From the NCBI RefSeq assembly GCF_000428045.1, contig NZ_ATZE01000013.1, positions 62,001-126,000 of the forward strand: a stretch of DNA of 64,000 nt. The letters are read 5' to 3'. The translations under genes and the position numbers were made by a program. Below the pieces are notes generated by a model, which saw nothing but the letters and a program-made list of their open reading frames with translations, had not been told where the DNA came from and did no database searches. This document shows, one piece after another, positions 1-38,208 of this stretch (position 1 is the stretch's first letter; every line of letters begins with the position of its first letter). The stretch comes from Sedimenticola selenatireducens DSM 17993. GTDB lineage: Bacteria > Pseudomonadota > Gammaproteobacteria > Chromatiales > Chromatiaceae.

Positions 1-2389
1 TAACGTGGACGAAAGCGATGTCCTCCAGGCCGCGCTCCCATGTGGCGCGCAACGCGTTGTAGAGCTTCGCCACCTCGACCGCGTACTCGTCTTCCTGGTT
101 GTTGTCATGCAGCAGCTTTGCCGCACGTGCCGCCTTCTCCAGTTTGTCGATGCGATCTTCGACGCTCTGGGCCTTCCAGGGCAGGCCATCGGCCACCATA
201 CCGGCTCCCGCGGCGCCACGACTGAGCGTCGTGAGCCGCACTGCCCGCCCGGTCTTCGTCGCGTGGTCATTCAGATCGTTCACGAACACCAGATCATGCG
301 TGAAGACGATGACCTGGCGGTTCTCCGCTTCTTCCACGAGACGCTTGGCCACCTGCCCACGCCAGCGATGGTCCAACGAGGACACCGGGTCATCGAAGAC
401 CAGAGCAGAGCGGTGCATCGCGGTGGCAAGCTCGGTCATGAAGGCGGCCAGCGCCACGCAGGTCTTTTCCCCTTCGCTCAGGATTTCGTGGACCTTGGCA
501 TCCGGCTTGGCGAAGAGGCGCACCTGATACTGCGGTGAGCCGTACTTGCCGCCGGAGCGCACGATTTCGACGCGAACCTTCGAGGCCGCAAGCCTGACAA
601 TCTCTTCCTGAAATCTGTCGCGCAGCCGAGGCGTAATCACGGTGTCGGCAATGTCGTTGCCCATCTTGGTGATGGTGTTCGTCGCCGTGTCGCCCGCACA
701 CTCGGTCAGAAACTGGATTGTCTTCAGCCGCTGGATTTCGTCAGTAACGACCGGCAGCATGCCGGCGAGCAGCGCCCGGTCGCTCAGCTCGGCGAAATCG
801 GCTTCGAGCTTCTTGCGTTCATCCGCGTCAGCGGACTTGCGCAGCTCGGCGGCGTAGTTGCGGATCGTGGTCTGAAGCTGGCCGAGATCAGGCAGCGGCG
901 ACAGTGGAACGGGCGGGAGCTGTACCTCGCCGTTTCCGCCCAGGGCTTTGAGCAGAACGTGGCGCCGCAGCCGGGCTGCGGCGATGAAGCGGCGCGTCTG
1001 CTGCTGCAGCACCTCATTCTGGAGGCCCAGCTCGTCAAGACTGGCCTTCACCGCCCGCGTGCCGATTGCCCCGGCAGCTATGGTCTGCCGTGCGGTCTGA
1101 GCTGCCTTCTCTGCCTCGCGTGCCAGCTGTTCCGTGTCCTTCTGGATGAAATCCTCGAAGCGTGCCATCCGTGCACGTGCCTCAGCTTCCAATGGCTGCT
1201 GGCAAAGCATGCAATGCGCGTCTTCGGCCGACGGCGGGAACGGCTGTCCGGGGTATGCGATTTCCGTCGAGTAGCGCCGCGCGGAATCCCAAAGCACCCG
1301 CCATGCCTCGCCGCCGACCCCGGCAAGGGGTTCGCCCGTGAAGGCCTTCTCCGCGGCAAGACGTGCAGCACCCCGTTTCGACCGTGCGTCCCTGGCGAGG
1401 GCAGCGGCTGCCAGCAGCTCCTCATCGGTGGTTCTGGCTGCAACGCTGTTCACCACGGTAATCAGCCGCATGACGTTGTCGGCTTTGACGGTCTGTTCCG
1501 CCGCTGCCTTGGTCGGATTCTTCGACAGGTCTTCCCGCAGACGCTCAAGACGGGCGCTTTCGTCTGCCGAGAGTGCCGCCAGGGCTTCGATCTTCTTTGC
1601 GTCTGTGTTGGCGTTCAGCGCGGCAAGCGCCTTCCCCACGGCCGTGGCGGCCTTCCAGGTCGGCGCCGCAAAGATCGGATTGCGGGCCTTCTCAAGCTGC
1701 TTCTGTTCAGCTGCGAGGGCATCCTTCACCGCCTGACAGGCTGCAGCAAGCTCATCCGGCACGTCCAGACCAAAGGGCCGGAATGCAACTTCGTTCTTCT
1801 CGCGGATATGCACGGAGGCGCAGTCGCTATCGAACACGCTCACTGCAGACAGCGTTGCATGCGGATTTGCGCCGTTCTGCCACTGCTCGACCGGCTGCGG
1901 CACACCGCCGACCCCGTACGCGATGTTCGCGCCGACGCGCTTCGGGGGCTGATCGGCATACACATTGGGTTCGATTTTTCCGGCATGCCTTGCACGACAT
2001 GCGCGCTTCAGGATCCGTGCGTAGCCGGACTTGCCCGCACCGTTGTCGCCGTAGATGATCGTGATTCCATTCGGCTCGAAGCTGAGGGTCTGGCCGGCGG
2101 CAAGGTTGTTCACGCCGGTCACGTCGGCGATCGACAGAAGCGATACCGCCGCGGTCTGACCGGGGTTGGCCGGAAGGTGGGCCTTCTCCAGCGGTACCGC
2201 TTTCAGCGCGCCTACGGGTGGACCTTTGCCCTGTTTGCAAAGGTCCACGAGTTCGCCGATATCGGCGTCCGTCAGACGGCCGTTTGCGATGATGCGGCGC
2301 AGGGCGTCACGCTGCCAGAGTGGACGATCCTTTGACCAGTCCAGAATCGTCTCCAGGACGGTCTTTTGCGGTGCGGCGGGTTTCTGCAT
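1..2389 (-). CDS. AAA_13 / Rad50-RloC-like ATPase with CxxC hook, 3' end outside window
   Basis: At least 796 residues are read on the minus strand without a stop before the left edge, so the C terminus is missing. The ATG at 2389 follows a strong GGAGG. After an N-terminal region of about 100 residues comes a Walker A (GDNGAGKS, about residues 114-121), then long Ala/Lys/Glu-rich segments suggesting coiled coil. Within these lies a CMLC motif (Cys393 and Cys396, bases 1202-1213) followed by QQPL, resembling the zinc hook of Rad50 and RloC. Near the C-terminal part are an ABC-type signature (LSEGEKT) and a Walker B (LVFDDPVSSLD). This is the AAA_13 architecture shared with PrrC/RloC-type defence ATPases. 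Whether a nuclease domain follows cannot be seen. A defence role is inferred from the domain type and neighbours. Confidence 0.8.
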   Translation of the reverse strand, partial: MQKPAAPQKTVLETILDWSKDRPLWQRDALRRIIANGRLTDADIGELVDLCKQGKGPPVGALKAVPLEKAHLPANPGQTAAVSLLSIADVTGVNNLAAGQTLSFEPNGITIIYGDNGAGKSGYARILKRACRARHAGKIEPNVYADQPPKRVGANIAYGVGGVPQPVEQWQNGANPHATLSAVSVFDSDCASVHIREKNEVAFRPFGLDVPDELAAACQAVKDALAAEQKQLEKARNPIFAAPTWKAATAVGKALAALNANTDAKKIEALAALSADESARLERLREDLSKNPTKAAAEQTVKADNVMRLITVVNSVAARTTDEELLAAAALARDARSKRGAARLAAEKAFTGEPLAGVGGEAWRVLWDSARRYSTEIAYPGQPFPPSAEDAHCMLCQQPLEAEARARMARFEDFIQKDTEQLAREAEKAAQTARQTIAAGAIGTRAVKASLDELGLQNEVLQQQTRRFIAAARLRRHVLLKALGGNGEVQLPPVPLSPLPDLGQLQTTIRNYAAELRKSADADERKKLEADFAELSDRALLAGMLPVVTDEIQRLKTIQFLTECAGDTATNTITKMGNDIADTVITPRLRDRFQEEIVRLAASKVRVEIVRSGGKYGSPQYQVRLFAKPDAKVHEILSEGEKTCVALAAFMTELATAMHRSALVFDDPVSSLDHRWRGQVAKRLVEEAENRQVIVFTHDLVFVNDLNDHATKTGRAVRLTTLSRGAAGAGMVADGLPWKAQSVEDRIDKLEKAARAAKLLHDNNQEDEYAVEVAKLYNALRATWERGLEDIAFVHV

Positions 2390-2498
2390 TTCTTGTTCCT
2401 CCGTCGCGCTCCAGGATGATGGCAAAGCGCCGCTCGGTGTCCGAATCGAACTTCTCGGCGGGGCGCTTCAAGAACTTGTGACCGCCAATCTTGGGCGC
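2390..2498 (-). pseudogene. Remnant of a helicase/type III Res-like C terminus
   Basis: Directly after the AIPR stop codon, and in the same frame, the minus strand reads about 30 residues that look like real protein: KIGGHKFLKRPAEKFDSDTE and then RRFAIILERD. The pattern of a basic stretch, then KFDS-TERRFA-ILE-D, recalls the end of type III restriction Res subunits and related DEAD-box restriction helicases. There is no start codon and the frame runs on into the AAA_13 gene in a different phase, so it cannot be an intact gene. It is best read as a scar of a deleted gene once located between the AIPR and ATPase genes. The family assignment is from memory and needs a search. Confidence 0.45.
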
Positions 2499-4574
2499 TC
2501 AGGGTTCGCTCACAACCACGCCTTCGAGACGCCCCTTGTCGAGAATATCCAGCAACACCACACTCTGCTTTTCTGTCGGGAGCTTGGAGGGAATCTGCAT
2601 GGCAACCCTAAGCACGCCGTCTTCCTTTGGCGTGAGCAGATCCTTCTCAAGCAGCGACTGATGGATGCGAGCCCATTCCGCAGCGGGAACAGCCAGCACT
2701 TTTTGCTGCGCCTCGATGCCGTTGTCGATCCTCTGCGTCTGCTTCGCAGTCTTCACGATCGCTGCCTGATCATCCTGCGGAACAAGTCGATCGTAGAACT
2801 CGGGCGGGAGAAGATTGGCAATGGCGTCGGTACGAGCCTGTATCCTCGTCCAGCACGCCTCCTTCTTGCACCACTCGGAAATGTTGGAAATGCCTTGCGG
2901 TGGTCTGATGATGTCGTCGTTCACGACCCCCGACACGACAGCGATGGCACTTTCGAGCACTGGGTCGACCTTCTGTGCGTTCCAGATGCCCAGAAAGTCG
3001 ATGCTCTCCTTCCTGCGCTTCGTGATGTCACCGAGTACCGCCAGCGTGTAGGCCACGATGTTTGCTCGGTACCCGCCGTTGTACCAAGGCTGCGCAGAAA
3101 CGATGCGCTCCGTGGCGCGGAAGATCAGACCACGTGCGACAGCCCTCTTGAAGTAGAACTCGTTGAACGCGTCGGATGATTTCTCCCACTCGCTGCCGAT
3201 TCGGGCGGCGTAGCGCGCAAAGTTCTTCTGGGAGCCAAGATTCACCCACCTGGGGTGGTCATCCCAGACATTCTCGAACTTCGCGAGGTCCGTCTTCGTG
3301 AACATCTGTGGCTTGGGATGCTCCGCCTTGAAGCGACGCTGCTCCGCGGGTGTGAGCTTCGACTGTGCATCGGCATACTGGCCGCGTGCGCGCTCATAGA
3401 ACCACCTCGTCTCGCGCTGGGCGCCCTTCTGCGCGGGTGCCCAGATCCGTCGGGAAAACCCTTCCATCCGCACATGGAACGGGTGGTTCGAGAAGAAGTC
3501 GGCGGCATTCACCCGATTCTGGGTGTTCGCATACTCCGATATCCTTGGAACGACCGTTTCGCTCTGCAGGCTGTCGATGACGGACAGCTTCAACTGGACG
3601 AATATCTGGGAAAGATCGGCCTTGTCCCGCTTCCGTGTGTGGAACAGCGATGCTGTGGTCTGGCCACCATTGACGATCTGGAGATCGACAACCCTCGTGA
3701 TCGCCAGACCGGAATCCGTCATCCCTGTCTCGACACTCTGTGCAGTAGCCGTGATCCCGTTGTTGTAGGCAAAGAACATCCCAGGTTCGTTCAGGATCGT
3801 CGCCCTTATTCCCTGGTTCACATTGCCGCGCGCCTGCAGGAACGTACGGACGTTCTGCTCAAGCAATCGTGCTCCGAATCTTTCGTACAGGGTCGCCAGC
3901 ACCTCGGCAGGCATGACCATGAGATAGGATTGATAGGCATCGGTCCCCAGGTGTGCGGGAAGGCAGGCGATGCCCTTGCCGAACATCTGCTCGAAGTCGA
4001 GGTCGAGTGGCTCCTTGTGGCTGCGAGAGCTTCGCTGACGATGAAGTCGTGAGATGTCCCAGATGTGGTGAGCAACCGGAACACCTGCCACTTCCGTATC
4101 GGGAAGTGCCTGGATTTTCTCGCTGAGCGTGCGCTCGGAGAAGAGAACCAGGTTGACCTGCCGAATGGCGTCCTTGCGATCCGCAATCTGCCTGGCAAGG
4201 CCGTACTCCGGCGATGTGACCTCCAGTTCGCCGGCCAGGCCCTTGTTGGCGCTGGCCTCGAAGAAGTTGGCAACACGCTTGAATGCCGCGGCCACTTCCG
4301 TTCTGGTGAGCGATGCCAGCTCGTTTCGGGAGTCGAAGTCCGCGATGAAGAGGTCCAGAACTCCTTCGTCATTGAACCAGTAGCCGTCCACGCGCATACC
4401 ACGCTGCGCCCGGAAATGGCAGAGTTCGAACCCTTCCGTGAAGCCTGTCTCGACAAGGTCGTTCGCGATGGCCTCCATGAATTCGGAGAGCTGGAAGCTG
4501 CCATTGGCCTCGGCGCCCGCCAAAAGTTCCTGTCGGAAGTCATGGAAGAATTCTTCGCCGGTCTGCTCCATCAA
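2499..4574 (-). CDS. AIPR-family abortive infection protein
   Basis: The 691-residue protein carries the AIPR (PF10592) core: NVRTFLQARGNVN (from residue 241), FFAYNNGIT (267-275) and VNGGQTTASL (301-310), followed by a long C-terminal region. AIPR proteins are linked to phage resistance by abortive infection and occur with restriction systems; their biochemistry is not settled as far as I know. Its start overlaps the end of the upstream PD-(D/E)XK gene by 4 bases, so translation is probably coupled. Met1 and Met2 are adjacent (4574 or 4571). It is the last intact gene of the four-gene operon that begins with the MORC-type ATPase. Confidence 0.85.
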   Translation of the reverse strand: MMEQTGEEFFHDFRQELLAGAEANGSFQLSEFMEAIANDLVETGFTEGFELCHFRAQRGMRVDGYWFNDEGVLDLFIADFDSRNELASLTRTEVAAAFKRVANFFEASANKGLAGELEVTSPEYGLARQIADRKDAIRQVNLVLFSERTLSEKIQALPDTEVAGVPVAHHIWDISRLHRQRSSRSHKEPLDLDFEQMFGKGIACLPAHLGTDAYQSYLMVMPAEVLATLYERFGARLLEQNVRTFLQARGNVNQGIRATILNEPGMFFAYNNGITATAQSVETGMTDSGLAITRVVDLQIVNGGQTTASLFHTRKRDKADLSQIFVQLKLSVIDSLQSETVVPRISEYANTQNRVNAADFFSNHPFHVRMEGFSRRIWAPAQKGAQRETRWFYERARGQYADAQSKLTPAEQRRFKAEHPKPQMFTKTDLAKFENVWDDHPRWVNLGSQKNFARYAARIGSEWEKSSDAFNEFYFKRAVARGLIFRATERIVSAQPWYNGGYRANIVAYTLAVLGDITKRRKESIDFLGIWNAQKVDPVLESAIAVVSGVVNDDIIRPPQGISNISEWCKKEACWTRIQARTDAIANLLPPEFYDRLVPQDDQAAIVKTAKQTQRIDNGIEAQQKVLAVPAAEWARIHQSLLEKDLLTPKEDGVLRVAMQIPSKLPTEKQSVVLLDILDKGRLEGVVVSEP

Positions 4575-5545
4575 TCCTCTCCGAAGATGGCTGCTTCGTC
4601 ACACTCGTACGGAGCAATCGTTTCCAGCCTGATGTCGTAGGCCACGTTGGCAATCCCTGGCGGCAGTTGCGACCGCATCAGCCGCGGAAATCCGTCACCA
4701 ACACGATAGCTGCGCACGTCGCTGACGACAAAGCGAGGCTCATCGTAGTCAGGGAGCGGCGCATAGCCGTGCGCAACCAGCTTCCGGTCAAAGGCCTCGA
4801 CGGCGTCCGCCTCGCCGAGCCGTGCCTGGACTGCAGTGACGATCTCGTTGAGCGATCGAGCTCCTGCCGCGTCGGCCAGACTGCTCAGCCGGTACACGCG
4901 CAGGAACAGCGCATCGTTCAGGGATTCGAGCTGGTCTTCCGATGAAATGCGGACGCTGCTCCGCTCTGCGCCAGAGAGCGATTTGACCTCGACGGCTGTG
5001 TTGCCAAAGATGAAATCCTGATGTGATCGTTCCGGACCGAGCCAGGCTTCGACGGCGTCACTGCTCGACATCTGCCGATCGATCAGTTCCGTCAGAAAGA
5101 CGATTTCGGCGAAGAGACCGCGGACTTCCTCGATGGACAGGTGCTGACTCCGGCCTGACAGGAAGGTCTTCCAACGGCGGATGTGTGCCAGAGAGACCGC
5201 GAGAGAACTCGCCGAGTCGGTGGCGTGCTCCAGCGAGGATGCAAGGGTGCGGCACAGTCCTTCGAAGAGATCGCGGTCGACCTGCCTTTCAAGGGCGAGG
5301 ACCAAGTGCTGCTGCCCCTGATCTCCGGCACGAAGATCGACATCGATGCCGTTCACCGTGACCGCGTTCTTCCGGTACTGGGCTGCGTGGTCGCCATGAA
5401 GCTCCACGATGAACAGGCAGGCGCCACCGGCATCGCGTCCCCAGAAACAGGGCACGGCCGTTCCCACCGCAACCTGGCGGACATTGAAGTCCGCTCCCGG
5501 AACGGCGATGTCATCCCACGGGGAGGACTCAGGCATCGTAGTCAT
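4571..5545 (-). CDS. PD-(D/E)XK motif protein (DUF4420)
   Basis: The 324-residue protein shows a restriction-endonuclease-like core. A helix with Glu147 (LFAEIVFL) is followed by HQDFIF with Asp177 and then AVEVK with Glu186 and Lys188, the D...ExK catalytic arrangement. Proteins of this type (DUF4420, PF14390) are found beside Z1 helicases and MORC ATPases and are expected to be the DNA-cutting subunit. The start overlaps the end of the Z1 gene; either Met1 (5545) or Met4 (5536) could be used. The 3' end overlaps the AIPR start by 4 bases. The catalytic residues look intact, so an active nuclease is likely. Confidence 0.85.
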   Translation of the reverse strand: MTTMPESSPWDDIAVPGADFNVRQVAVGTAVPCFWGRDAGGACLFIVELHGDHAAQYRKNAVTVNGIDVDLRAGDQGQQHLVLALERQVDRDLFEGLCRTLASSLEHATDSASSLAVSLAHIRRWKTFLSGRSQHLSIEEVRGLFAEIVFLTELIDRQMSSSDAVEAWLGPERSHQDFIFGNTAVEVKSLSGAERSSVRISSEDQLESLNDALFLRVYRLSSLADAAGARSLNEIVTAVQARLGEADAVEAFDRKLVAHGYAPLPDYDEPRFVVSDVRSYRVGDGFPRLMRSQLPPGIANVAYDIRLETIAPYECDEAAIFGED

Positions 5546-8189
5546 CCTCCTCGTCAGGATCGTCGGCGTAACCCTGCATCTGCTGGAGCCAGACCTTGTT
5601 CACGACGACATTGATGGTCGTCGAATAGTCCCCGTAGGGAAAACTGACGCCGAAGGCGGCGATCGGTCCCGTCACGGCCTCGCCCTTGGGCTCCAGGCTG
5701 TGAATCATGAGGAGCGGCTTGTTCCGAACCATGCGGTAATGTGTGTCGGATACCGCTCCTGAGCCATCTTCGCCGCCTGCCAGCGTCCTGGCCTCATTGC
5801 GTTGTGCGTCGCTGAGCCCAAGCTTCTCGTCGCCACGCGAGGCAACCCTGTCCTTGTTCAGGCGCCACGAAGTGCCGTTCGGCTGATCCTTCCCGACGAC
5901 GCGCACCTGATTCCTCAGGGTGAACGGGTTTTCACCGCCTGAGCCACCCGAAGGGGAAATCAGCAGAACATCGGCCAGCGGGCGCTTCGTCGCAATCCGT
6001 TCGAGATAGCTCACCACGTCCGACTTCTGTCCAGAAAAGGTCGAGTGGCATTCGAACCGGGTGAGGAAGTCGTCGATTACCTCGACGGGCACGTCCCTGA
6101 AGATGACGCCCTTTTCGGTGGACTCCTCCGGTCGCCCGCCGAATCCACTTCGCCAGTGATCGCCGATCAGCGCAAGGTTCCTAGCATTCACGTCAGGGTC
6201 GGTGGAGACAATGTAGCTCTCCCGCAATCGCCCACTGAAACTCTGCTCGACCGTGACCTCCTGGCCGGATCGCATCTTGTTCGCCGCCGTGATCAGCAGG
6301 CTGTCCGGATGCGAGCGGACGTACAGGCCAAAATCCTTCGGGCTAAGGCGATCGCGCCGCATGCGCTTGACCTGCTGTACAAGCTCTTCGGCGGCATCGG
6401 CGATGTGGGAGTACCAGTTGATCGAATCGCGTGAGAGATGGACGCGGCAGAGGTCCTCGAAGCCCGGCCGGTAGCCGAACCAGCGGCCCATCTGCATGAG
6501 GGTGTCGTACATCTTCGTGTTGCGGTACATGTAGCTGACGGTCAACCCCTCGATGGTCAGGCCTCGGGAGAGGCTCAGACCACCGACCGCGACCGCGGTC
6601 AACCCGACTCCTTCCTTCGCGTAGCGGGCGTAGTCGAGCACCTCGTCACTCTTGCTGTTGATGACATAGAGGTGGAGGTGCTCGAAGACGCCGCTGAGGG
6701 CAGCCTTCACCTCCGCCCAAGTAAACCCAGCATCGGCATACTCAGCATCGAAGGCGTGCTTCAGGCCCTGCATGTACGCGTTTCTTGCGGAAACCTCTTC
6801 CGGCATCGCGTAGTTGGCGAGAACCGCTTCCCTGATCTTCTTCTCCCTGAGACTCAGGAAGTCACGCACGGCCTTCTGAACGGGCACGAAGCGCGACACA
6901 TTGACCATCATTGAGCAATGCTTGCCGGTCTGCCCACGCAGGTTCCGGATGGCGCGGGCGACGATGAATTCGTCGAGTGCGCGATAGAGGCTGGGGGGCA
7001 ACTCGGGGACAGGATCGTCACGCTTGTGGGCGTACGGGATGAGATTCTCGCAATCGTCGATCGGCCTCACGATCGATTGACTGGTCGCCTCGTCGAGGAA
7101 CACCTTCTCGGCACCGAAGTACGTCGTTGGCGCGTCCAGGCAATAGATGAAGTCGCGCGGGAACAGCTCCTCACGCACATCATCGCCATAGGCGTCGGGG
7201 TTGATGAAGATGTTGGCGAACGGTGTCGCCGTGTAGCCGACATAGCACGATTTCGCGAACAGCCCGAGGATGCGCCGGATCATCGCATTCGTTCGGGTCG
7301 GATCCAGATCCTCCTTGTTCGTGTTGATCGACGCGTTGTCGGCCTCGTCGTCAATCAGCAGCATCGGCACGTCGGAAATCCGGCCATCGCCCTCGGCGTT
7401 CAGCTCCTTCAGCCACTTGTGAAGAGCCGTGAGCGTCGTGACGTTCTTCTTGATGACCAGAATGATCGGCTTGCTGAAGTCGTTGATCTTCCAGCCGCTC
7501 TTTTCCGCCGTGTTCTTGTTGAAGTCCTCGTTGATGTTGGTGAGGGTAGCCGGATGCGGATAGCCCGGCGCGAGGCCGACACCGATGTTGCGACGATCCT
7601 CGGGATCGCTGGACCGGCCGATGAAGGCCTCATCGATGCGCTGCTGCGTCTGCTTACGCAGATTGTTGTGAATGCCGGCGACAACGATGATGAACTTGTA
7701 GCCGGCGTCGGCGGCGCGTGCTATCAGGCCGGTGTAGTTGGCCGTCTTGCCCGACTGCACATGACCGATGACAAGGCCGCGACGGTTCCAGGTTGTGCCC
7801 TCGCTTAACGGATCCTGCAGGTGGCCGAGAATGCGGGTCGTCACATCGCTCAGCGACTGGACCATCTGCGGTGGCCAACTTTCCTTGAGAAGAAAGTTTC
7901 CATAGGATTCCGCATACGTCCAGGCGACATCCTCACGCTTGTGGACCCACTGATCGTCATGCTTCGCAGTGACATCCACCAGCGAAACACCGGCCCCCAT
8001 GCGCGTGTCGACCGAGATCATCGCCTCGGTGACGATATTACGGAGATCACCCGTATAGCCGAAGATCGCGGCGATCTGTCTCGCCTTCTCCTCCACCTGC
8101 TCGCGCGTCGGCGTCTCGGCCATGTTGGCAAGGCCTGAGATGAGCGCGTTGGCAATGTTCCGTTCTTCCGTGATGACTGTGAGGCTCAT
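5529..8189 (-). CDS. Z1-domain superfamily II helicase-like ATPase
   Basis: The 886-residue protein has a Walker A of the Z1 type (GHVQSGKT, residues 142-149), a Walker B DDEAD (280-284) and a GYTATPFAN motif III (about 318-326), typical of the Z1 domain (PF10593) found in restriction-type operons. It probably uses ATP hydrolysis to move along or remodel DNA for the partner nuclease. The N-terminal 120 residues precede the helicase core, and the C-terminal half includes a KMYDTLMQMGRWFGYRPG segment characteristic of Z1 proteins. Its first codon overlaps the last codons of the MORC-type gene (8186-8189), and its end overlaps the nuclease gene. Confidence 0.9.
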   Translation of the reverse strand: MSLTVITEERNIANALISGLANMAETPTREQVEEKARQIAAIFGYTGDLRNIVTEAMISVDTRMGAGVSLVDVTAKHDDQWVHKREDVAWTYAESYGNFLLKESWPPQMVQSLSDVTTRILGHLQDPLSEGTTWNRRGLVIGHVQSGKTANYTGLIARAADAGYKFIIVVAGIHNNLRKQTQQRIDEAFIGRSSDPEDRRNIGVGLAPGYPHPATLTNINEDFNKNTAEKSGWKINDFSKPIILVIKKNVTTLTALHKWLKELNAEGDGRISDVPMLLIDDEADNASINTNKEDLDPTRTNAMIRRILGLFAKSCYVGYTATPFANIFINPDAYGDDVREELFPRDFIYCLDAPTTYFGAEKVFLDEATSQSIVRPIDDCENLIPYAHKRDDPVPELPPSLYRALDEFIVARAIRNLRGQTGKHCSMMVNVSRFVPVQKAVRDFLSLREKKIREAVLANYAMPEEVSARNAYMQGLKHAFDAEYADAGFTWAEVKAALSGVFEHLHLYVINSKSDEVLDYARYAKEGVGLTAVAVGGLSLSRGLTIEGLTVSYMYRNTKMYDTLMQMGRWFGYRPGFEDLCRVHLSRDSINWYSHIADAAEELVQQVKRMRRDRLSPKDFGLYVRSHPDSLLITAANKMRSGQEVTVEQSFSGRLRESYIVSTDPDVNARNLALIGDHWRSGFGGRPEESTEKGVIFRDVPVEVIDDFLTRFECHSTFSGQKSDVVSYLERIATKRPLADVLLISPSGGSGGENPFTLRNQVRVVGKDQPNGTSWRLNKDRVASRGDEKLGLSDAQRNEARTLAGGEDGSGAVSDTHYRMVRNKPLLMIHSLEPKGEAVTGPIAAFGVSFPYGDYSTTINVVVNKVWLQQMQGYADDPDEEDDYDA

Positions 8190-9664
8190 GCAAAGGTCTC
8201 GCTGATGAATTTTTCGGCCAGTTCGATCTGGCCATCGAAAAGGTGCGTCGAGCGCACGATCTGGAGAAAGGCATTCGGATCGCCCGGCCCGTCGCCGTAG
8301 AGCACCTTCCTGAGACTCTTCAGGCGCTCCAGAGTCTGGCTTTCATCCACCGCCCTCTGGTTGATCTCGCGCGGATGGGTCGAGTAATCCGAATAGATCA
8401 TCTCCACCGGTAGGGAGGCGGCAATCGAATCCAGCAGGACACGAAGCAGATCCACATCCTCGGACGAAAGTCTTGTGCCCAGGGATGCGATGAGCGGGTG
8501 CTGCTCGTTGATTGCGAAACGGATGCCGCCGTGATCGGCGTAGCGCTCCCAGAACGGGGCTTGGCTCTCCTGAAAGAGCTTCTGCCCACGCCCCCTATGC
8601 ACCGTTACGCTGCGGGCAGTGATCCTGTTGATGATCTGACGCAGCCGCTCCCGCACCCCATGCGGCGGGCGGGCACGGGATTTCTTGATGTCGATGGTCC
8701 AGGCTTCGTCCAGGCTGTTGGGAAAGTCGATCTGTACCCGCGCCAACTTGGTGGCCTCGCCCTTCGGCACGAGTCTGAACCAGTCGCCCCAGGCCATCAG
8801 GCGGCCGTTTCGATAGACGTAGCCCCCCTGATTGGAGATGAAGTCACTGCGATCCTGGTAGTAGTCGTACTCGGACGCGGACAGACGACTGTGGTGTGGA
8901 AGCACGTAAGGCTGCAGGCGCACCTCGGCCTCGCCGATGCGGACGATCTCCTCCGGAAGCACCTGGGTGGCAGGATTCTTCCTGCAGAAGGGATCGAATG
9001 CCGTAATCGGACGACCATTGACGGTGAGAGAAATCCTGGCATGTCCCTTGATCTCACCCGAGAGAAACCGGTGGAAGACAAGTGACAGATGTCTGCCTAC
9101 TGCCTCAAGCTTCTCATTGACGATCTCGTCTCGACGATCCCCGGCCTCGTCCTCCATCAATCGGTCGAGCTCTCGCCAGATAACGGCCGTGCCCCGGGCG
9201 CCGAGCCGTTCGACATAAGGCAGCCCATGGATGTCCGCATCGTCCAGGATGGAAAGAATCCAGTCGTCGGCAGCATCGATGCGATCCAGATTCCATTCGG
9301 CTCCGCAGACAGTTCCATCGCGTGTGCTCACAACGGTCAGCGAGCGACATTGGGAAAACGAGGCTGTCTTCAGGCCAAGGCCGAAGCGCCCAAGATCCTT
9401 CGGCGACCGATGCTGCCTGGGGTTGCCGGTCCCATGACGCATCGCATCGAGCAGCTCGTCTTCCGTCATCCCCCTGCCGTTGTCGAGGATGACCATCACA
9501 GGATGCTCACCGGACACATCGCAAATGATGTCGATGGTGTCCGCGCCAGCGGAAATGCTGTTGTCGATCAGATCGGCAATCGCAGTTTCGAGCGAGTACC
9601 CAAGGTCCCGCATCGATTCGGAAAGGCAGGCCGCGCTCGGCGGATGACTGCGATCACGAGCCAT
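8186..9664 (-). CDS. MORC/MutL-type GHKL ATPase
   Basis: The 492-residue protein begins with a complete GHKL ATP-binding fold: N-box with Glu26, Asp31 and Asn35 (ETAIADLIDNS), G1 DNGRGM (61-66), and G2 GRFGLGLKT (92-100). The rest has no domain I can name. Prokaryotic MORC-type ATPases of this kind are known from comparative genomics to sit with Z1 helicases, REase-fold proteins and methylases, and are thought to act as ATP-dependent clamps on DNA. AGAGGAAG lies just before the ATG. This is the first gene of the four-gene minus-strand operon, and it is divergent from vsr, so 9665-9799 must hold both promoters. I saw no strong promoter match there. Confidence 0.88.
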   Translation of the reverse strand: MARDRSHPPSAACLSESMRDLGYSLETAIADLIDNSISAGADTIDIICDVSGEHPVMVILDNGRGMTEDELLDAMRHGTGNPRQHRSPKDLGRFGLGLKTASFSQCRSLTVVSTRDGTVCGAEWNLDRIDAADDWILSILDDADIHGLPYVERLGARGTAVIWRELDRLMEDEAGDRRDEIVNEKLEAVGRHLSLVFHRFLSGEIKGHARISLTVNGRPITAFDPFCRKNPATQVLPEEIVRIGEAEVRLQPYVLPHHSRLSASEYDYYQDRSDFISNQGGYVYRNGRLMAWGDWFRLVPKGEATKLARVQIDFPNSLDEAWTIDIKKSRARPPHGVRERLRQIINRITARSVTVHRGRGQKLFQESQAPFWERYADHGGIRFAINEQHPLIASLGTRLSSEDVDLLRVLLDSIAASLPVEMIYSDYSTHPREINQRAVDESQTLERLKSLRKVLYGDGPGDPNAFLQIVRSTHLFDGQIELAEKFISETFA

Positions 9665-9799
9665 CGGCTTCCTCTTGCGTCTTCTCGTGAGTCACGTGCA
9701 TGGTAAGCTCCGAATTGCTGCTTCGGGTGTCGTCTTCATCCGTTCGCATTGCCAAGCGGAAGCGCGGAGCTGCCATTTCTGCAGACATTCAGGCGGAAG

Positions 9800-10258
9800 A
9801 TGCTCAAGACCATGCGCGTTCCTACCACTCCGCAGCGCAGCCGCATGATGTCGAGCATTCGCGGAAAGAACACCCGGCCGGAACGGATACTTCGCTCCCT
9901 CCTTTTCGCCAGGGGTTTTCGATATCGACTTCATGTGCGGGGGCTGCCCGGCTCCCCCGACCTTGTGTTCCCGAAGCGCAAAGCAGTGGTGTTCGTCCAT
10001 GGCTGCTTCTGGCACCGACATGAAGGCTGCCGCTACACAACCACTCCCAGGACCAATGAAGATTTCTGGCGGCAGAAATTCCAGGGAAATGTCGCTCGCG
10101 ACAGGCGCCATGCGGAGATGCTCCATGCTCTCGGCTGGCGCGTGGCGGTCGTCTGGGAGTGCGCCTTGAAGCACTCGGTCGAGGAGACTACGCAAGCGGT
10201 TGAGGAGTGGCTGCATGGCGATGAGGATGTCCTGGTGATTGGTCAGAGCATTGGCTAG
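9800..10258 (+). CDS. vsr: Very short patch repair (Vsr) endonuclease
   Basis: The 152-residue protein matches Vsr along its length: SRMMSSIRGKNTRPE near the N terminus, GLPGSPDLVFP with the catalytic Asp, FVHGCFWHRHEGC with the His residues and zinc ligands, and VVWECALK near the end. Vsr nicks next to the T of T:G mismatches formed when 5-methylcytosine deaminates, which fits the methyltransferase encoded next door. An upstream in-frame ATG at 9749 adds 17 residues not typical of the family. I prefer 9800 (AGGCGGA just before) with 9812 as an alternative. It runs convergent to the methyltransferase gene and both stop codons fall in the same CTAG at 10255-10258. Confidence 0.9.
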   Translation: MLKTMRVPTTPQRSRMMSSIRGKNTRPERILRSLLFARGFRYRLHVRGLPGSPDLVFPKRKAVVFVHGCFWHRHEGCRYTTTPRTNEDFWRQKFQGNVARDRRHAEMLHALGWRVAVVWECALKHSVEETTQAVEEWLHGDEDVLVIGQSIG

Positions 10259-11874
10259 CCCGCTTCGGCAAGCACCGGAAGCTGTTCTGGCAGGTTTCGC
10301 GGCACGCTTCCCGCCGGCCTCTTCTGTACGGCATCACCAGCCTGCCTCCGCCTCCTCCTGCTCATCTCGTTCAGAAGGCTACGAACGATCCTGGCCAGCT
10401 TGTGAGCAAGCAACGGAGGCACCGCATTGCCTACCTGGGTGTACTGCTCAGTGCGGTTGCCCGCGAAGACGTAGTTGTCGGGAAACGTCTGGAGCCGTGC
10501 TGCTTCCCTGACCGTGAGACTTCTGCATTGGGAGGGGTCGTAGTGGATGTAGTAGTGCCCGTCCTTGGCAATGTGAGCCACCACCGTGGTGGACGGTTCG
10601 TTCCTGCACTGCACGCGGAACCGATCCTTGAACGGGATCGTTTCGGATTCCCGATCGACATGCACATTGATGTGATCGGGAAGCAGCTTGGGAGGGAACA
10701 CATCCAGCCGTGGGCAATATCCCCATAAATGAGCGAAGCTGGCCGAGAAAAGATAGCGAGCAAGATCGGATGCCATGTGCGCGCGCGCTTCATGCTGACA
10801 GACACCACCCAGGCTTCGGTCGTGAAGCCATTGCTGAAGCTCGGTCGGCTTCTTCGGCCTTCTGTAGCCTCGTGAAATGAAGGCGCCACCGGTCGTGGTG
10901 CTGGTTGCCGCAGCGGCAAAGGCACGCATTGTCCCGATCATGACGGACTCGTTTTCTGTCCTCCATCCCTTGACGTAAGAGGGGCCAGCCTGAACAGCCT
11001 TGCGCCATGCCTCCACTGAATCGCCACGCGACAGCTTGCTGCGGATTCGGGGAAGATCGTCAATGGCCTGTTTGACCGTGACAGGCCTCGCTACTGGTGC
11101 CAGCAACTGGTGTTGAGGCATGTCCAGCCCCTTTCTCACTCCGAGCAGAATCACGCGATGCCTGCTTTGCGGGATCCCATGGCGCTCAGAATGGATAAGG
11201 TAGTCGGTGGGTTCCAGCGAACTGCCGTCGCCCTTCTTGGTGAAGGATCGGATCTCATATTCGAGCCCCTCGGTCGGCATCGAAAGATCCGCAATGATCT
11301 TCTCGAACATTGGGTCGCCGGAGTGCTTCGAGGAAAGCAGACCCTTGACATTTTCCATCACGAAGATGGTGGGCTTGTGCACTTGGATGATTCTCAGGTA
11401 TTCCCTGTAGAGGAAGTGCTTTTCATCCTTGTGAAAGTCCTTGTCGTTGGCGCGTCTGGAGCGCCCCGCCAGCGAATACGCCTGGCAGGGCGGGCCGCCG
11501 ATCAGCACCCAGGTTTCCTGCCCCTTCAGTGCAGCGCGAATTTCCCTATCAATACTGGCTTCGTCGGACTTGCCAAGCTCTAGGCACCTCGCTTCGGTGG
11601 CAGCATGCTCGAAGGCGCTGGCCACGGCAGGGATCCTGCGGAAAGCGGCCTCATCGATCTCGCCTCGTATGTAGCTGTAGTAGTGCTTGACGTCCTTGGT
11701 GCCACGCAAACGCCTGAACACTGCCCTGAGCGTCAGCGTGCGATGTGCGACAGCATCCTTTTCAATGGAAAGGGCGATCTCGAAGAATGGCTGCCGTTTG
11801 TGGCCCTGCAGGGAAGCAAATCCTTCCCCGAGCCCTCCTGGGCCAGCAAAAAGATCAATTATGGGAACTGGCAC
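10255..11874 (-). CDS. DNA (cytosine-5) methyltransferase
   Basis: The 539-residue product has the C5-methylase motifs in order: motif I IDLFAGPGGLGEGF at the N terminus, motif IV GGPPCQ with the catalytic Cys near residue 130, motif VI ENVKG (about 174), motif VIII QSRHRV, and motif X QVGNAVPP near the end. I chose GTG at 11874 because AAGGGGAGG lies about 9 bases upstream and motif I then begins where the family usually starts. The open frame extends another 77 residues upstream but reads through the helix-turn-helix gene. It probably protects host DNA for the neighbouring restriction genes and creates the 5mC whose deamination Vsr repairs. The recognition site cannot be predicted from this reading. 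Confidence 0.92.
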   Translation of the reverse strand: MPVPIIDLFAGPGGLGEGFASLQGHKRQPFFEIALSIEKDAVAHRTLTLRAVFRRLRGTKDVKHYYSYIRGEIDEAAFRRIPAVASAFEHAATEARCLELGKSDEASIDREIRAALKGQETWVLIGGPPCQAYSLAGRSRRANDKDFHKDEKHFLYREYLRIIQVHKPTIFVMENVKGLLSSKHSGDPMFEKIIADLSMPTEGLEYEIRSFTKKGDGSSLEPTDYLIHSERHGIPQSRHRVILLGVRKGLDMPQHQLLAPVARPVTVKQAIDDLPRIRSKLSRGDSVEAWRKAVQAGPSYVKGWRTENESVMIGTMRAFAAAATSTTTGGAFISRGYRRPKKPTELQQWLHDRSLGGVCQHEARAHMASDLARYLFSASFAHLWGYCPRLDVFPPKLLPDHINVHVDRESETIPFKDRFRVQCRNEPSTTVVAHIAKDGHYYIHYDPSQCRSLTVREAARLQTFPDNYVFAGNRTEQYTQVGNAVPPLLAHKLARIVRSLLNEMSRRRRRQAGDAVQKRPAGSVPRNLPEQLPVLAEAG

Positions 11875-11935
11875 GCCAGCAATCCTCCCCTTGGTTCTTT
11901 CCCGAATGTGATTCGGTTGCTGATTTGGTGCACGC

Positions 11936-12136
11936 TCACTCTGCCTCCGGCTTCTTCTTGCTGATGCTTTCGGCGATCCACCGATCCAGCTCCGAGCGGC
12001 GAAAGCGCCAGGTTCCCCCAAGCTTGAACGCCGGAATCTCGCCTTTCTGGGCAAGGCGATAGACCGTCCGTTTCCCGGCTTTGAGGTAGGCCGCGACCTC
12101 CTCAAGCGTGAGGATCTCGCTCTCGACTTCAGTCAT
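11936..12136 (-). CDS. Small helix-turn-helix (excisionase/MerR-like HTH_17) protein
   Basis: The 66-residue protein has the classic single-domain pattern LTLEEVAAYLKAGKRTVYRL followed by KLGGTWRFRRSELDRWI, which is the HTH_17 winged-helix fold seen in excisionases and small DNA-binding regulators. It lies 61 bases upstream of the methyltransferase and in the same direction, so it is likely co-transcribed. It may control the defence genes, as C-proteins and excisionase-like factors do in other cassettes. The open frame continues upstream, where residues such as ELASTYRSLVELAKLG also look protein-like, so a longer form is possible. The ATG at 12136 gives the usual family length. Confidence 0.75.
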   Translation of the reverse strand: MTEVESEILTLEEVAAYLKAGKRTVYRLAQKGEIPAFKLGGTWRFRRSELDRWIAESISKKKPEAE

Positions 12137-32003: not shown

Positions 32004-33083
32004 TCATCCTGACAACAATCTACCCTTGTTACCCTTGTCTCGAATTTCAAGGAACCTAGCGATCAAACAGCCGACTCCGATGGAGATCGCAACATCGGCG
32101 AGGTTGAACGCGGGCCAGTGCATGCCCTGCCAGTGGAAGTCGAGGAAGTCCACAACCTGACCGCGCAGCAGGCGATCCACCACGTTGCCAAGTGCCCCGC
32201 CAAGAATGAGGCTGTAGCCGACGGCTTCGAAGCGCGGCAGCGTCTGCTTCAGTTGTCGGATGAGCCAGACCGCGACGAGCAGTCCTAACGTGATGAAGAA
32301 GTAACGTTGCCAGCCACTCGCTCCGGCCAAAAAGCTGAACGCGGCGCCCGGATTGAGCACATGCACGAGGTTGAAGAACGGCGTGATCTCGACCTGTTTG
32401 CCATAGACGAACGCCCGTTCGATCGAGAGCTTGGCTGCCTGATCAGCAGCAACCGCTGCCGCAGCCACCCCGTACCACGGCAAGGCCGGCGCGAGCAGCC
32501 CCTTTGCGCGCGCCGCAGTGGCGAACGAGATCAGCCACCGCGAGAGCACGGTGCAGCCCAAGCCCAGCCCCCAGCCTGCCAGCACGTCGCCCGGGAAGTG
32601 CATACCTGCCGCCATGCGTGACCAGCCAACCAGGGCGGCATACATCAACAGGCAACCGCGACCGCGCCAGGCCAGCAGCGGCCACAACGCAGCGGCCACC
32701 AGCGCCGCGTAGGTCGCGTGCCCGCTGGGCAGGCTGTAATGCAGCTCCACAGCGCCGATGACATGCACCGCTGCGCCCAGCACCGCATGCGGGCGCGGAA
32801 AGTCGAGCCACCACTTCAAGGCCGACGCCGCCGCCAAGGCCAGCAAGAACGCGACGCCGAAGTGCAACAAACGGCTCCGCACTAGCCGAACGCGGGCCGG
32901 ATCGGAAGATGCCTTTGACCATGCCCATAGGCCCAGTACGGTTAGGGGCGCGGTCCAGTAGCTGCCGATTAGGCTGAAGAGCGACGCCAGCGGCCACAGC
33001 ACTGCGGGCGTCCCAGCATTGATCGCTTGAAATAGCGCGAGATTCAGACCGGCCCAGTCATACAGCACGAATTTCCAACTCAT
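32004..33083 (-). CDS. pbrBC: PAP2 phosphatase - LspA signal peptidase II fusion (PbrB/PbrC-like)
   Basis: The 359-residue membrane protein joins two enzymes. The first half has the PAP2 motifs KWWLDFPRP, PSGHA and SRMAAGMHFPGDV, as in undecaprenyl-pyrophosphate phosphatases. The second half is LspA-like, with LNPGAAFSF, GGALGNVVDRLLRGQVVDFL and FNLADVAI holding both catalytic Asp residues. The same fusion (PbrB/PbrC) is known from lead-resistance operons, where phosphate released in the periplasm is thought to precipitate exported Pb(II). The start overlaps the stop of the metal ATPase gene by 4 bases. Confidence 0.88.
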   Translation of the reverse strand: MSWKFVLYDWAGLNLALFQAINAGTPAVLWPLASLFSLIGSYWTAPLTVLGLWAWSKASSDPARVRLVRSRLLHFGVAFLLALAAASALKWWLDFPRPHAVLGAAVHVIGAVELHYSLPSGHATYAALVAAALWPLLAWRGRGCLLMYAALVGWSRMAAGMHFPGDVLAGWGLGLGCTVLSRWLISFATAARAKGLLAPALPWYGVAAAAVAADQAAKLSIERAFVYGKQVEITPFFNLVHVLNPGAAFSFLAGASGWQRYFFITLGLLVAVWLIRQLKQTLPRFEAVGYSLILGGALGNVVDRLLRGQVVDFLDFHWQGMHWPAFNLADVAISIGVGCLIARFLEIRDKGNKGRLLSG

Positions 33084-35482
33084 CGGCGCAGCAGCCTCAA
33101 GCCATTGCCCACCACCAGCAGGCTAGCTCCCATGTCGGCGAACACCGCCATCCACATGGTCGCGTGGCCGGTGAAGGTGAGCACCAGGAACACGGCCTTG
33201 ATGCCCAGCGCAAGCGCGATGTTCTGTGTGAGCACCTGTGCCGTGGTGCGGGACAGCCGCACGAAGGTCGGAATCTTGCGCAGGTCATCGTCCATCAGCG
33301 CCACGTCGGCCGTCTCGATGGCCGTGTCGGTGCCCGCCGCGCCCATCGCGAAGCCAATGTCGGCACGAGCCAACGCCGGAGCGTCGTTGATTCCATCACC
33401 GACCATGCCGACCCCGCCGGACTGGGCAAGCGCTTCGATCTCGCGCAGTTTGTCATCGGGGAGCAGGTTGCCTTGTGCGCGGTCGATCCCGGCCTGTGTG
33501 GCAATCGCCTTGGCGGTGTGTGGGTTGTCGCCGGTCAGCATCATGGTCTGGATGCCCAGCGCGTGCAGTTCGGCCACGGCGCTCCGGCTGCTGTCCTTGA
33601 TGGTGTCGGCCACTGCCATGAGCGCCTGCACGCCCTCGGGCTCCACCAGCATCACCGCCGTCTTACCCTCGGCTTCCAGTGCGGTGATGCGTTGTTCCAT
33701 TGCGGGGGAGCAATGTCCCAGCTCGTCGAGCATCCGATGGTTGCCGAGGTGATAGGCCACTCCGTCGATCACGCCGCGCACGCCTCGGCCGGGCAATGCG
33801 GCGAATTCCGCGACTTCGCGCAGCGCCACGCCGTCGGCAAGGGCGGCTTGCGCGATTGCCTTGGACACCGGATGGTCGGAGCGGCTGGCCAGGCTGGCCG
33901 CGAGACTACGGGCGTGCTGGGGCGAAGCGTTACCCAAGGCAACGAAGTCGGTCTGCGCGGGCTTGCCGTGGGTGATGGTGCCGGTCTTGTCCAAGGCCAG
34001 CCAGCGCAGCTTGCGGCCCTCTTCCAAATACACGCCGCCCTTGATGAGAATGCCGTGGCGTGCCGCTGCGGCCAACCCGCTGACGATGCTGACGGGTGTC
34101 GAAATCACCAGCGCGCACGGGCAGGCGATCACCAGCAAAACCAGCGCCCGATAGATCCAATCCAGCCATGCCGCTCCCACAAAGAGCGGCGGCACCAGTG
34201 CGACGACCACGGCCAAGGCGAATACGGCGGGCGTGTACCAGCGCGCGAACTGATCCACGAAGCGCTGGGTCGGCGCGCGGCTGCCTTGTGCGGCCTCCAC
34301 CGCATGAATGATGCGGGCCAGCGTGGAGTTGTTCGCCAGCGCCGTGACACGGTACTCGAACGAGCCTGACTCGTTGAGGGAACCCGCAAAGACGGGATCG
34401 CCTAGGCCCTTGTCGACGGGCAGACTCTCCCCGGTGATCGGCGCTTGGTTCACGGTCGAGCGGCCTTCTACGACCTCCCCATCGAGGGCGATGCGTTCGC
34501 CAGGCCGCACTCGCACCCGGCTGCCGATCGCAACCTGCTTGGCATCCACCTCGCGCCATGAGCCATCAGGCTGTTGCACCGTGGCTCGCTCCGGGGCCAG
34601 ATCGAGCAGCCCCGCGATGGCGTTGCGGGCGCGGTCCAGCGACTTGGCCTCGATGACCTCGGCCAAAGCGAACAACACCATCACCATCGCCGCCTCCGGC
34701 CAGTGCCCGATCAACATGGCCCCGGTGACGGCAATCGACATCAGGGCGTTCATGTTGAGGTTGCGGTTCTTGAGGGCAATCCATCCTTTCTTGTAGGTGG
34801 ACAGGCCACCGGTGAGGATGGCGACCAGAGCCAGAACCATCACCGACCAATGATTGCCGCCTTGGAGCCAGTACACGGCCTCCGCCGCAACAGCGGCGAC
34901 TAGCGAGATGCCGAGCGGCCACCAATGGGTCGTGGTCTGCCCCGGTGCTGATGACGCAGGCGTGCGGTTGGCTTCTTCGAGCACTTGGGCCTCGAAGCCG
35001 AGCGATTGCAGAGCACCCAGCACGTCAGGCAGCACGGCTGGGGCATGGCGCACGGTGAGCGTGCGTTGCATCAGGTTGAAGTCGAGATCGATCACACCGG
35101 CCAGCGTGGCGAGATTGCTGCGGATCAGCGCCTCCTCGGACGGACAATCCATCTTGGCGATGGCAAGGCGGGTGGTCTGCACCGCCGAGCGGTCGTCCTG
35201 TCGCACCGCCTGCATATCGACAGCCGCCAAGGCTTGTTCCACGGGGGCCAACGACGCCAGGGTGTGCCGCACGGTCAAGGTGCGCCGCATCAGGTTGAAA
35301 TCGAGCTCCACCACGCCGGGCACGCCGCCCAGCTTGCCCCGGATCAGCGCTTCTTCCGTGGGGCAGTCCATGTTCTCGATGTGATAGACGGCAACCGCCA
35401 CCCCGGTAGTGGCGCTGGTCTGTGTTTCTGATTTGAGAACGGGAGCATCAGCACAACCGTACCCGCTTGATCCGCAACTCAT
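33080..35482 (-). CDS. pbrA: P1B-type Pb/Cd/Zn efflux ATPase (PbrA/CadA-like)
   Basis: The 800-residue pump has two N-terminal metal-binding domains with unusual CPTEE (Cys40) and CPSEE (Cys113) motifs in place of CxxC. The transport motif is CPC (VIACPCALV), the phosphorylation motif DKTGT, and the hinge GDGINDAPAL; a TGES actuator motif is also present. CPxEE sites and the partners point to lead, cadmium or zinc export from the cytoplasm. It is divergent from the MerR-type regulator gene and preceded by a classic 19-bp-spacer promoter. The downstream PAP2-LspA gene overlaps it and completes the operon. Confidence 0.92.
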   Translation of the reverse strand: MSCGSSGYGCADAPVLKSETQTSATTGVAVAVYHIENMDCPTEEALIRGKLGGVPGVVELDFNLMRRTLTVRHTLASLAPVEQALAAVDMQAVRQDDRSAVQTTRLAIAKMDCPSEEALIRSNLATLAGVIDLDFNLMQRTLTVRHAPAVLPDVLGALQSLGFEAQVLEEANRTPASSAPGQTTTHWWPLGISLVAAVAAEAVYWLQGGNHWSVMVLALVAILTGGLSTYKKGWIALKNRNLNMNALMSIAVTGAMLIGHWPEAAMVMVLFALAEVIEAKSLDRARNAIAGLLDLAPERATVQQPDGSWREVDAKQVAIGSRVRVRPGERIALDGEVVEGRSTVNQAPITGESLPVDKGLGDPVFAGSLNESGSFEYRVTALANNSTLARIIHAVEAAQGSRAPTQRFVDQFARWYTPAVFALAVVVALVPPLFVGAAWLDWIYRALVLLVIACPCALVISTPVSIVSGLAAAARHGILIKGGVYLEEGRKLRWLALDKTGTITHGKPAQTDFVALGNASPQHARSLAASLASRSDHPVSKAIAQAALADGVALREVAEFAALPGRGVRGVIDGVAYHLGNHRMLDELGHCSPAMEQRITALEAEGKTAVMLVEPEGVQALMAVADTIKDSSRSAVAELHALGIQTMMLTGDNPHTAKAIATQAGIDRAQGNLLPDDKLREIEALAQSGGVGMVGDGINDAPALARADIGFAMGAAGTDTAIETADVALMDDDLRKIPTFVRLSRTTAQVLTQNIALALGIKAVFLVLTFTGHATMWMAVFADMGASLLVVGNGLRLLRR

Positions 35483-36042: not shown

Positions 36043-37896
36043 CTAGGCGACCCCGACTCGCGGCGGGGTCCATTCGCTTTCCTTCACGGCCGTGCTCACT
36101 GCCATGGCGAGCTTGTCGAGATTGCTGGCAGTCACGCCCTCCAGTGCCGAACGCCCCCGCAGCATCGAGCGCGGTTGCAGCAGTGCATGGTAGATCTGCC
36201 AAGGGTCCGCATCCCTGGTCAGCTTCAGGACGGACTGGATCAGCTCGTGCTTGAGCGGGTCGAGGTGCCAGTCCGGCACGCGCTGGCCGCGGTTGCCTAC
36301 GTTCAAAGCCAGCAAGTTGCCCGCCTTGATCTCGTAGCTGATCCACCTGCGGGATTTGCCTGCCATCTTGGCAAACGCAGCGACGGGAAGGTTGTGCGGC
36401 GCTTCGAAGACATCGAACAGCTCCATCCGCTCGCGCTGAATGTCCGAAGGCACCAGCGGCGCGGCCGATCGAGGGGGCGGAACCGCCGGCAGCCGATGTG
36501 CGGCGGCAGAAACCAACGGCATGGCGTCACCCGGCTTTGTCACGAGCAGGATTGGCGAAGCAGCAACCGGCGTAGAGGGGGCGTTTGCGGTTTGCTCACT
36601 CGGGAATGCGGGCACGCCTTCCAGATGCACGGTGAGGGGCATGCTGGCCGCCTCGACCTGGTTCTGCTCGAAGAGGTCGAGCCGATCGGCCCAGTCCTGC
36701 ATCATGCGGCGACGCTGCTCCACGTACTCGGCATGGTTGTAGGTCGCGCTGACCTTGTTGGGATCGACGTGCGAGAGCTGTGCATCCACCCAGACTTTCG
36801 GGTAGCCGATCTCGTTGAGCGCAGTGGACATCGTGCCGCGGATGCCGTGTCCGGTCAGGCGTTCCTGATAGCCCATGCGCTTGAGGGCACCATTGAGGGT
36901 GTTCTCGCTGATGCGCTTCTTCAAGTCGCTGTCGTGCCGGAACAGGTGGCGCTGGGCCGGCTTGAACTCATCGAGCAGGTGCCGGACGATCTCCATGGCC
37001 TGAATCGACAGCGGCACGATGTAGGGCGGGATGTCCTTCGCCTGCTGCCGCTTCTTGCGCATATCCAACTGGAGTTGCTTCACGACGTCGGGCGGGATGA
37101 TCCACAACCCACGGTCCAGATCGAATTGATCCGGCATCGCCTGTCGCAGCTCGCCGGTTCGCACGCCGGTCAGCAGCAATAGCCGCAGCCCGAGCTGGGT
37201 CTGCCGCCTGCCGCGATAGCTGCGCAGCCGCTGCAACAGCTTCGGCAGCTCGGCCATGCGCAGGAACGGGTTGTGGTTGACGGGTGGCAGCGGCAGCGCC
37301 ACCACATCGAGATCGGAGGCGGGGTTCTGCTCCAGGCCCGGCACGATCACCAGCGCGTAGCGGAACAGTTGGTTGAACCACGTCCTGACTTTCTCGGCGA
37401 CGGAGAGCGCCCTGCGCTTCTCGATCTTGGCGATCACCTCCAAGAGGTCGGGACGCTTGATCTCATAGATCGACCGCTTGCCCAGGGCGGGCAGCACATC
37501 TTTGTCGAAGATGCGCGGAAGTATCGAGAGGGTCGTCTGCCGGCCTTCCTTGAGGCTGAGCCCGCGATGCTTGAGCCACTTGCGATACACCGCCTCGAAG
37601 GTGTTTTCGTCGGCGAGCCGGACAGCGGTGCGCTTCTGCTTGCGGTGAACGCGAGGATTGGTGCCTTTGGCCAGCAGGGCGCGCGCTTCGTCGCGCAGGC
37701 TGCGGGCCTCGCGAAGCGTCACCTCCGGGTAGGTGCCGAGCGACATCCGCTTCTGCTTGCCCGCCCAGTAGTAGCGGAAGTGCCAAGTCCTGCCCCCTGC
37801 AGCGGTGACGGCCAGGGAGAGGCCATCCAAGTCAGGGAGGGTGTATGCCTTGCCTGTTGCCTTGGCCTGTCGAACGGCCAGGTCTGAGAGTGCCAT
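36043..37896 (-). CDS. int: P4/ICEclc-type tyrosine integrase with long C-terminal extension
   Basis: The 617-residue integrase has the DUF4102 arm-binding N terminus, a core-binding domain, and the tyrosine recombinase residues Arg246 (GVRTGELR), His350-x-x-Arg353 (HGIRGT), His376 (LSHVD) and Tyr386 (ATYNHAEY). About 200 residues follow the catalytic domain, with a segment (about 530-605) resembling small DNA- or toxin-binding domains (WQIYHALLQPRSMLRGRSAL). Such length is typical of ICEclc-like integrases. It should catalyse excision and insertion at the tRNA-Gly 3' end. I use ATG 37896, with CAGGAG 8 bases upstream. Confidence 0.93.
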   Translation of the reverse strand: MALSDLAVRQAKATGKAYTLPDLDGLSLAVTAAGGRTWHFRYYWAGKQKRMSLGTYPEVTLREARSLRDEARALLAKGTNPRVHRKQKRTAVRLADENTFEAVYRKWLKHRGLSLKEGRQTTLSILPRIFDKDVLPALGKRSIYEIKRPDLLEVIAKIEKRRALSVAEKVRTWFNQLFRYALVIVPGLEQNPASDLDVVALPLPPVNHNPFLRMAELPKLLQRLRSYRGRRQTQLGLRLLLLTGVRTGELRQAMPDQFDLDRGLWIIPPDVVKQLQLDMRKKRQQAKDIPPYIVPLSIQAMEIVRHLLDEFKPAQRHLFRHDSDLKKRISENTLNGALKRMGYQERLTGHGIRGTMSTALNEIGYPKVWVDAQLSHVDPNKVSATYNHAEYVEQRRRMMQDWADRLDLFEQNQVEAASMPLTVHLEGVPAFPSEQTANAPSTPVAASPILLVTKPGDAMPLVSAAAHRLPAVPPPRSAAPLVPSDIQRERMELFDVFEAPHNLPVAAFAKMAGKSRRWISYEIKAGNLLALNVGNRGQRVPDWHLDPLKHELIQSVLKLTRDADPWQIYHALLQPRSMLRGRSALEGVTASNLDKLAMAVSTAVKESEWTPPRVGVA

Positions 37897-37991
37897 GCTC
37901 TTGCTCCTGAACATGAGTCAGGAACCAGATGCTGGTCACGTCGACCTCGCCCCTCCATCAACAATCCGGAATCAGCCGCGCCCGCAAAAAT

Positions 37992-38134: not shown

Positions 38135-38152
38135 TGGAGCGGGTGAAGGGAA
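38135..38152 (-). other. ICE attachment site (attR side) in tRNA 3' end
   Basis: The integrase gene faces the tRNA 3' end, and related elements recombine within the last 18 or so bases of a tRNA gene, here the part ending GCTCCA on the minus strand. The second copy expected at the far end of the ICE is outside the window. The exact core length is inferred from related elements. Confidence 0.6.
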
Positions 38153-38208
38153 TCGAACCCTCGTATGCAGCTTGGGAAGCTGCCGTTCTACCATTGAACT
38201 ACACCCGC
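38135..38208 (-). tRNA. glyU: tRNA-Gly(CCC)
   Basis: A 74-base cloverleaf with encoded CCA. The acceptor arm GCGGGTG pairs with CACCCGC. The D-loop contains AGTTCAATGGTAGAA, the anticodon loop is TTCCCAA (anticodon CCC) on a GCAGC/GCTGC stem, and the T-arm is GAGGGTTCGATTCCCTT. The gene is intact despite the integrated element at its 3' end, so the ICE restores the tRNA sequence. Confidence 0.95.

Follow-up and report, generated by a model that had tools for sequence, protein, structure and literature searches.

A MORC–Z1–AIPR gene core with its own C5 methyltransferase and Vsr in Sedimenticola selenatireducens: a putative defence cassette of an already described kind

What kind of system is encoded at positions 2,499 to 12,136 of a 64,000-nucleotide stretch of Sedimenticola selenatireducens DSM 17993 (contig NZ_ATZE01000013.1; the whole stretch is called the window), and which of its genes belong together? 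A sequence-only reading had proposed a composite defence operon of four core genes accompanied by a C5 methyltransferase, a Vsr enzyme and a small helix-turn-helix (HTH) protein. The gene set is genuine and belongs to a type of bacterial defence set that has been described before; the cassette is a putative anti-phage system, as its likeness to MZA and its hotspot context suggest. Profile searches (Pfam, PADLOC, NCBIfam) confirmed the proposed domain identities; the core is indeed chained by overlapping ends on one strand and tied to the methyltransferase and Vsr, and its relatedness to the operons described by Iyer, Abhiman and Aravind (2008) is supported as well. The genes are as follows.

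2499..4574, minus strand: AIPR-family protein (MzaE-like), 691 amino acids; PF10592 7.4e-102, PF22879 1.4e-45, PADLOC MzaE 4.7e-83
4571..5545, minus strand: DUF4420 PD-(D/E)XK protein (MzaD-like), putative nuclease; PF14390 1.1e-61, MzaD 7.7e-25
5529..8189, minus strand: Z1 helicase (MzaC-like); PF10593 1.1e-71, MzaC 7.7e-133
8186..9664, minus strand: GHKL/MORC-MutL-type ATPase (MzaB-like), 492 amino acids; PF13589 1.4e-33, MzaB 2.1e-87
9800..10258, plus strand: Vsr-type endonuclease, 152 amino acids; PF03852 2.5e-28, TIGR00632 145 bits (cut-off 97.85)
10255..11874, minus strand: C5-cytosine DNA methyltransferase; PF00145 2.1e-44, TIGR00675 138 bits (above cut-off)
11936..12136, minus strand: small HTH_17/excisionase-type protein, accessory regulator; PF12728 3.1e-20, NCBIfam MAD1 82 bits (cut-off 80)

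The Vsr gene is opposite in strand to the methyltransferase gene, and their stop codons overlap; the latter gene likely starts with the GTG at 11874, which is preceded by GGGGAGG.

How are these parts inherited? The comparison of relatives (the best 80 of 576; 77 of these loci and the window in the tree) suggests that the cutting parts and the self-recognition parts are inherited as separate blocks. The methyltransferase was found in 55/55 loci with flank, while Vsr is absent from six of these 55, which retain the core and the methyltransferase; both the loci and the tree indicate that the methyltransferase, rather than the core, is what Vsr travels with. The pair switches side at least five times over 70 rows of the tree. 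AIPR is a core gene, and its tree follows the methyltransferase: it is co-inherited with the methyltransferase and the N-terminal part of MORC. The inheritance comparisons cover 55 of the 80 loci, those with all six genes at full length (a set different from the 55 loci with flank), and the cluster-based tests cover 32 of them, from the two largest methyltransferase clusters; these tests are post hoc, because the cut at about 55% identity was chosen after the identity table had been viewed. Partial correlation over all loci (55 of 80) gave no support for MORC. The idea of diagnostic “specificity residues” was abandoned, with just two in AIPR and two in MORC in the 32 loci. The proposed methylation-dependent choice between self and non-self is plausible. 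Neither the block structure nor the co-inheritance of AIPR with the methyltransferase was found described in a search that was thin in subscription journals and included the accessible parts of PMC2292703, PMC9523054, PMC4267653, PMC12629846, PMC12907096, PMC8011034, PMC5379612, PMC10855318 and PMC7251935.

Can AIPR be an abortive-infection effector that kills or stalls the cell once the core has detected invading or damaged DNA? It bears the abortive-infection name, is labelled an abortive infection protein in the accessible part of Miller 2022 (PMC9523054), has a weaker PADLOC match to AbiU (3.9e-22), and is strongly conserved (61 invariant columns across 60 sequences), as might be the case for an enzyme. 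We nevertheless consider this role unlikely: unlike a detachable toxin, AIPR shares its inheritance with the methyltransferase and the N-terminal part of MORC, the structure comparison recognised no fold, and residues 20-110 of its N-terminal domain (22 sequences) are without an invariant acidic catalytic set. The abortive back-up of the sequence-only reading is not supported; the sole pointer to it is the name of a core gene that follows the methyltransferase tree.

Two further ideas on AIPR were dropped. In residues 28-146, the predicted succession of helices and strands, together with a weak and not significant Foldseek match (E 0.73) to 2vld, a repair endonuclease from Pyrococcus, suggested an N-terminal nuclease domain of PD-(D/E)XK-like type; the candidate acid D63 is replaced by serine in Mza-like AIPRs, and there was no significant match. 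Kinship with DUF262/GmrSD was put forward from the NGGQT motif, which we take to be DGQxR-like; hhalign returned a probability of 0.1 (percent scale) and E 0.59 in what was a weak test with two DUF262 sequences.

The Vsr protein combines a match to the family model with the canonical catalytic and zinc residues E31, D57, H75, C72, C80 and C124, all conserved (numbering of the protein read from 9791); their roles are presumably those of E. coli Vsr. It is very improbable that Vsr is a restriction effector (a nicking restriction endonuclease) rather than a repair enzyme: the accessible part of Iyer 2008 does list VSR-superfamily endonucleases among the nucleases of such operons, but the six flanked loci above keep the core and the methyltransferase without it, it moves with the latter, and it retains the canonical residues. 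In Caulobacter, according to the part of PMC12907096 available, ScmA loss is harmful because of VsrA.

The helicase has conserved GKT (147-149), DDEAD (280-284) and QMGRWFGYR (566-574). In the putative nuclease, E147, D177 and E186xK188 are kept in 75/76 to 77/77 sequences, and the same four residues are invariant in 58 aligned sequences. The structure model places E147 in a helix (138-156), D177 next to a strand (178-180), and E186 and K188 in a strand (183-191), so that the acidic and ExK residues would lie on secondary structure compatible with PD-(D/E)XK membership of DUF4420; a Foldseek comparison of this model with the PDB gave no match at E <= 0.001, the best rows being poor kinase superpositions. 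The GHKL ATPase has conserved D31xxxN35, D61xGxG65 and G92-G97 and matches MutL and MORC chains of the PDB at E of about 1e-3; we assign it as MORC-type only. Its catalytic position D31 is Asp in all 76 sequences covering the column and in E. coli MzaB; the usual residue at this GHKL position is Glu.

Where does the system end? The HTH gene had been counted as part of the set. It occurs in 8/80 related loci, and HTH_17 in 5/62 upstream genes of relatives; these counts rule it out as a fixed part. The other neighbours are listed below.

2..2425, minus strand (cut by the window edge; L002:15762-18425): AAA_13 ATPase, PADLOC candidate PDC-S06 (5.3e-192), 887 amino acids
12361..12726, plus strand: RAQPRD-family protein of an integrative and conjugative element (ICE), outside the system, one hotspot boundary; TIGR01690 98.9 bits (cut-off 50)
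36043-37914: tyrosine integrase, adjoining tRNA-Gly(ccc) at 38135-38208

The AAA_13 ATPase, which also has a weak mad3 match (6.3e-17), was tried as an eighth gene and rejected: it is present in 4/80 related loci (some ending short of its place), and other genes stand there in a Stutzerimonas stutzeri contig, L006. It is a neighbour in the hotspot, outside the system.

The cassette is flanked by TraD/TIGR03747 (L002:12768-15670) and RAQPRD of an ICE, with TraC, TraU and TraG farther along. The integrase and tRNA-Gly(ccc) site is likely the attachment end of this ICE; a second copy of the tRNA-Gly end or a direct repeat was not found in the window or L002, and the tRNA stretch has a further match on contig C8 (91% over 74 bases). 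According to the available part of PMC12629846, TraD and RAQPRD are the boundaries of GI-Hotspot 8 of the PAGI-2, PAGI-3 and LESGI-3 islands, at which Mza was counted 1338 times in a set of more than 40,000 regions. The fixed link to an ICE was not upheld: the place of the cassette is a defence hotspot already known from the literature, and the directly upstream genes vary between relatives. A Burkholderiales metagenome-assembled genome has a 22.7-kb stretch of 99.1% identity; L006 has 97.3% over 15.7 kb, and genes like those of the cyclic oligonucleotide-based anti-phage signalling system (DncV-like, E1/E2, JAB, patatin) occupy the AAA_13 place. A heavy-metal P-type ATPase (HMA and E1-E2 ATPase domains; 33080-35482) is encoded near the integrase, and a SNF2/ResIII-type helicase gene lies beyond TraD (L002:7083-9410).

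How does the cassette compare with MZA (MzaABCDE), reportedly the system of Gao et al. 2020? Homologues of MzaB, C, D and E stand in the same order on one strand as overlapping genes (PADLOC 2e-87, 8e-133, 8e-25 and 5e-83, respectively). However, the matches stay well below the NCBIfam equivalog cut-offs (MzaB 318/850, MzaC 510/1500, MzaD 133/420 and MzaE 361/1050 bits), and the window cassette carries its own methyltransferase and Vsr. An MzaC-family match was found in 13/369 genomes of the window's class and in 8/40 genomes of the order of genome G199, none passing the cut-off. Six near-Mza loci were fetched from these eight genomes; the core of one, L131, is 31-41% identical to that of the window. 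L131 encodes an RpoD-like MzaA (586 bits; the cut-off is 800), and MORC is preceded by a match to this factor in 5/5 loci whose contig extends there (L131, L145, L146, L147, L149). The window cassette differs in this respect from MZA, where the sigma-70-type MzaA stands upstream of MzaB: no match to the L131 factor was found among open reading frames of at least 40 codons in the window and L002 at E <= 10. This MzaA-like factor (L131:9612-11894) also scores 587 bits with the housekeeping RpoD model, above its cut-off of 555, which raises the possibility of sigma-factor mimicry by MZA. Behind AIPR, on the opposite strand, the methyltransferase–Vsr pair is present in 5/5 loci whose contig reaches there (L131, L145, L146, L148, L149).

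The DNA of L131 MzaC matches 55/5426 E. coli genomes. E. coli has Dcm and Vsr. No cytosine methyltransferase or Vsr is annotated near MZA in the four E. coli strains opened (8-12 kb shown per side), and from this lack we guess that these systems may lean on the host Dcm and Vsr. In two of the four loci an IS421-family element interrupts the gene that stands where mzaB would be; three of the E. coli loci, L150, L151 and L152, are from strains 214-4, G1/2 and ES5, and ES5 has a second mza copy before the complete one, in which mzaD and mzaE were observed; the search placed mzaC at two sites in this strain. On a Thalassospira plasmid, genes for a restriction endonuclease and a cytosine methyltransferase come after the mza genes; the PLSDB gene table, which is incomplete, lists no Vsr there.

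Other systems were compared as well. The HTH protein passes the MAD1 cut-off of the methylation-associated defence system, but it also passes a general excisionase model, and no other mad model is among the matches listed for any of the seven (25 of 56 PADLOC rows in the case of the methyltransferase). In CglI/NgoAVII the nuclease is PLD+B3; AIPR and DUF4420 are absent from the accessible part of the description (PMC4267653), where MORC occurs in the reference list only. The available part of Miller 2022 places AIPR in a type II putative defence system (II-A/II-B), leaves Vsr unlinked to type II and links DNA repair endonucleases with type I, the loci being compared by description. AIPR (MzaE) belongs to MZA by NCBIfam and E. 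coli annotation, and the accessible part of Iyer 2008 has VSR as a frequent neighbour and AIPR in the legend of Fig. 2. AIPR and Vsr as a new link is thus a claim we cannot retain: Iyer 2008, MZA and Miller 2022 already have them, and these older and recent papers mostly answer the question. The useful additions are the mosaic and the coupling of Vsr with the methyltransferase.
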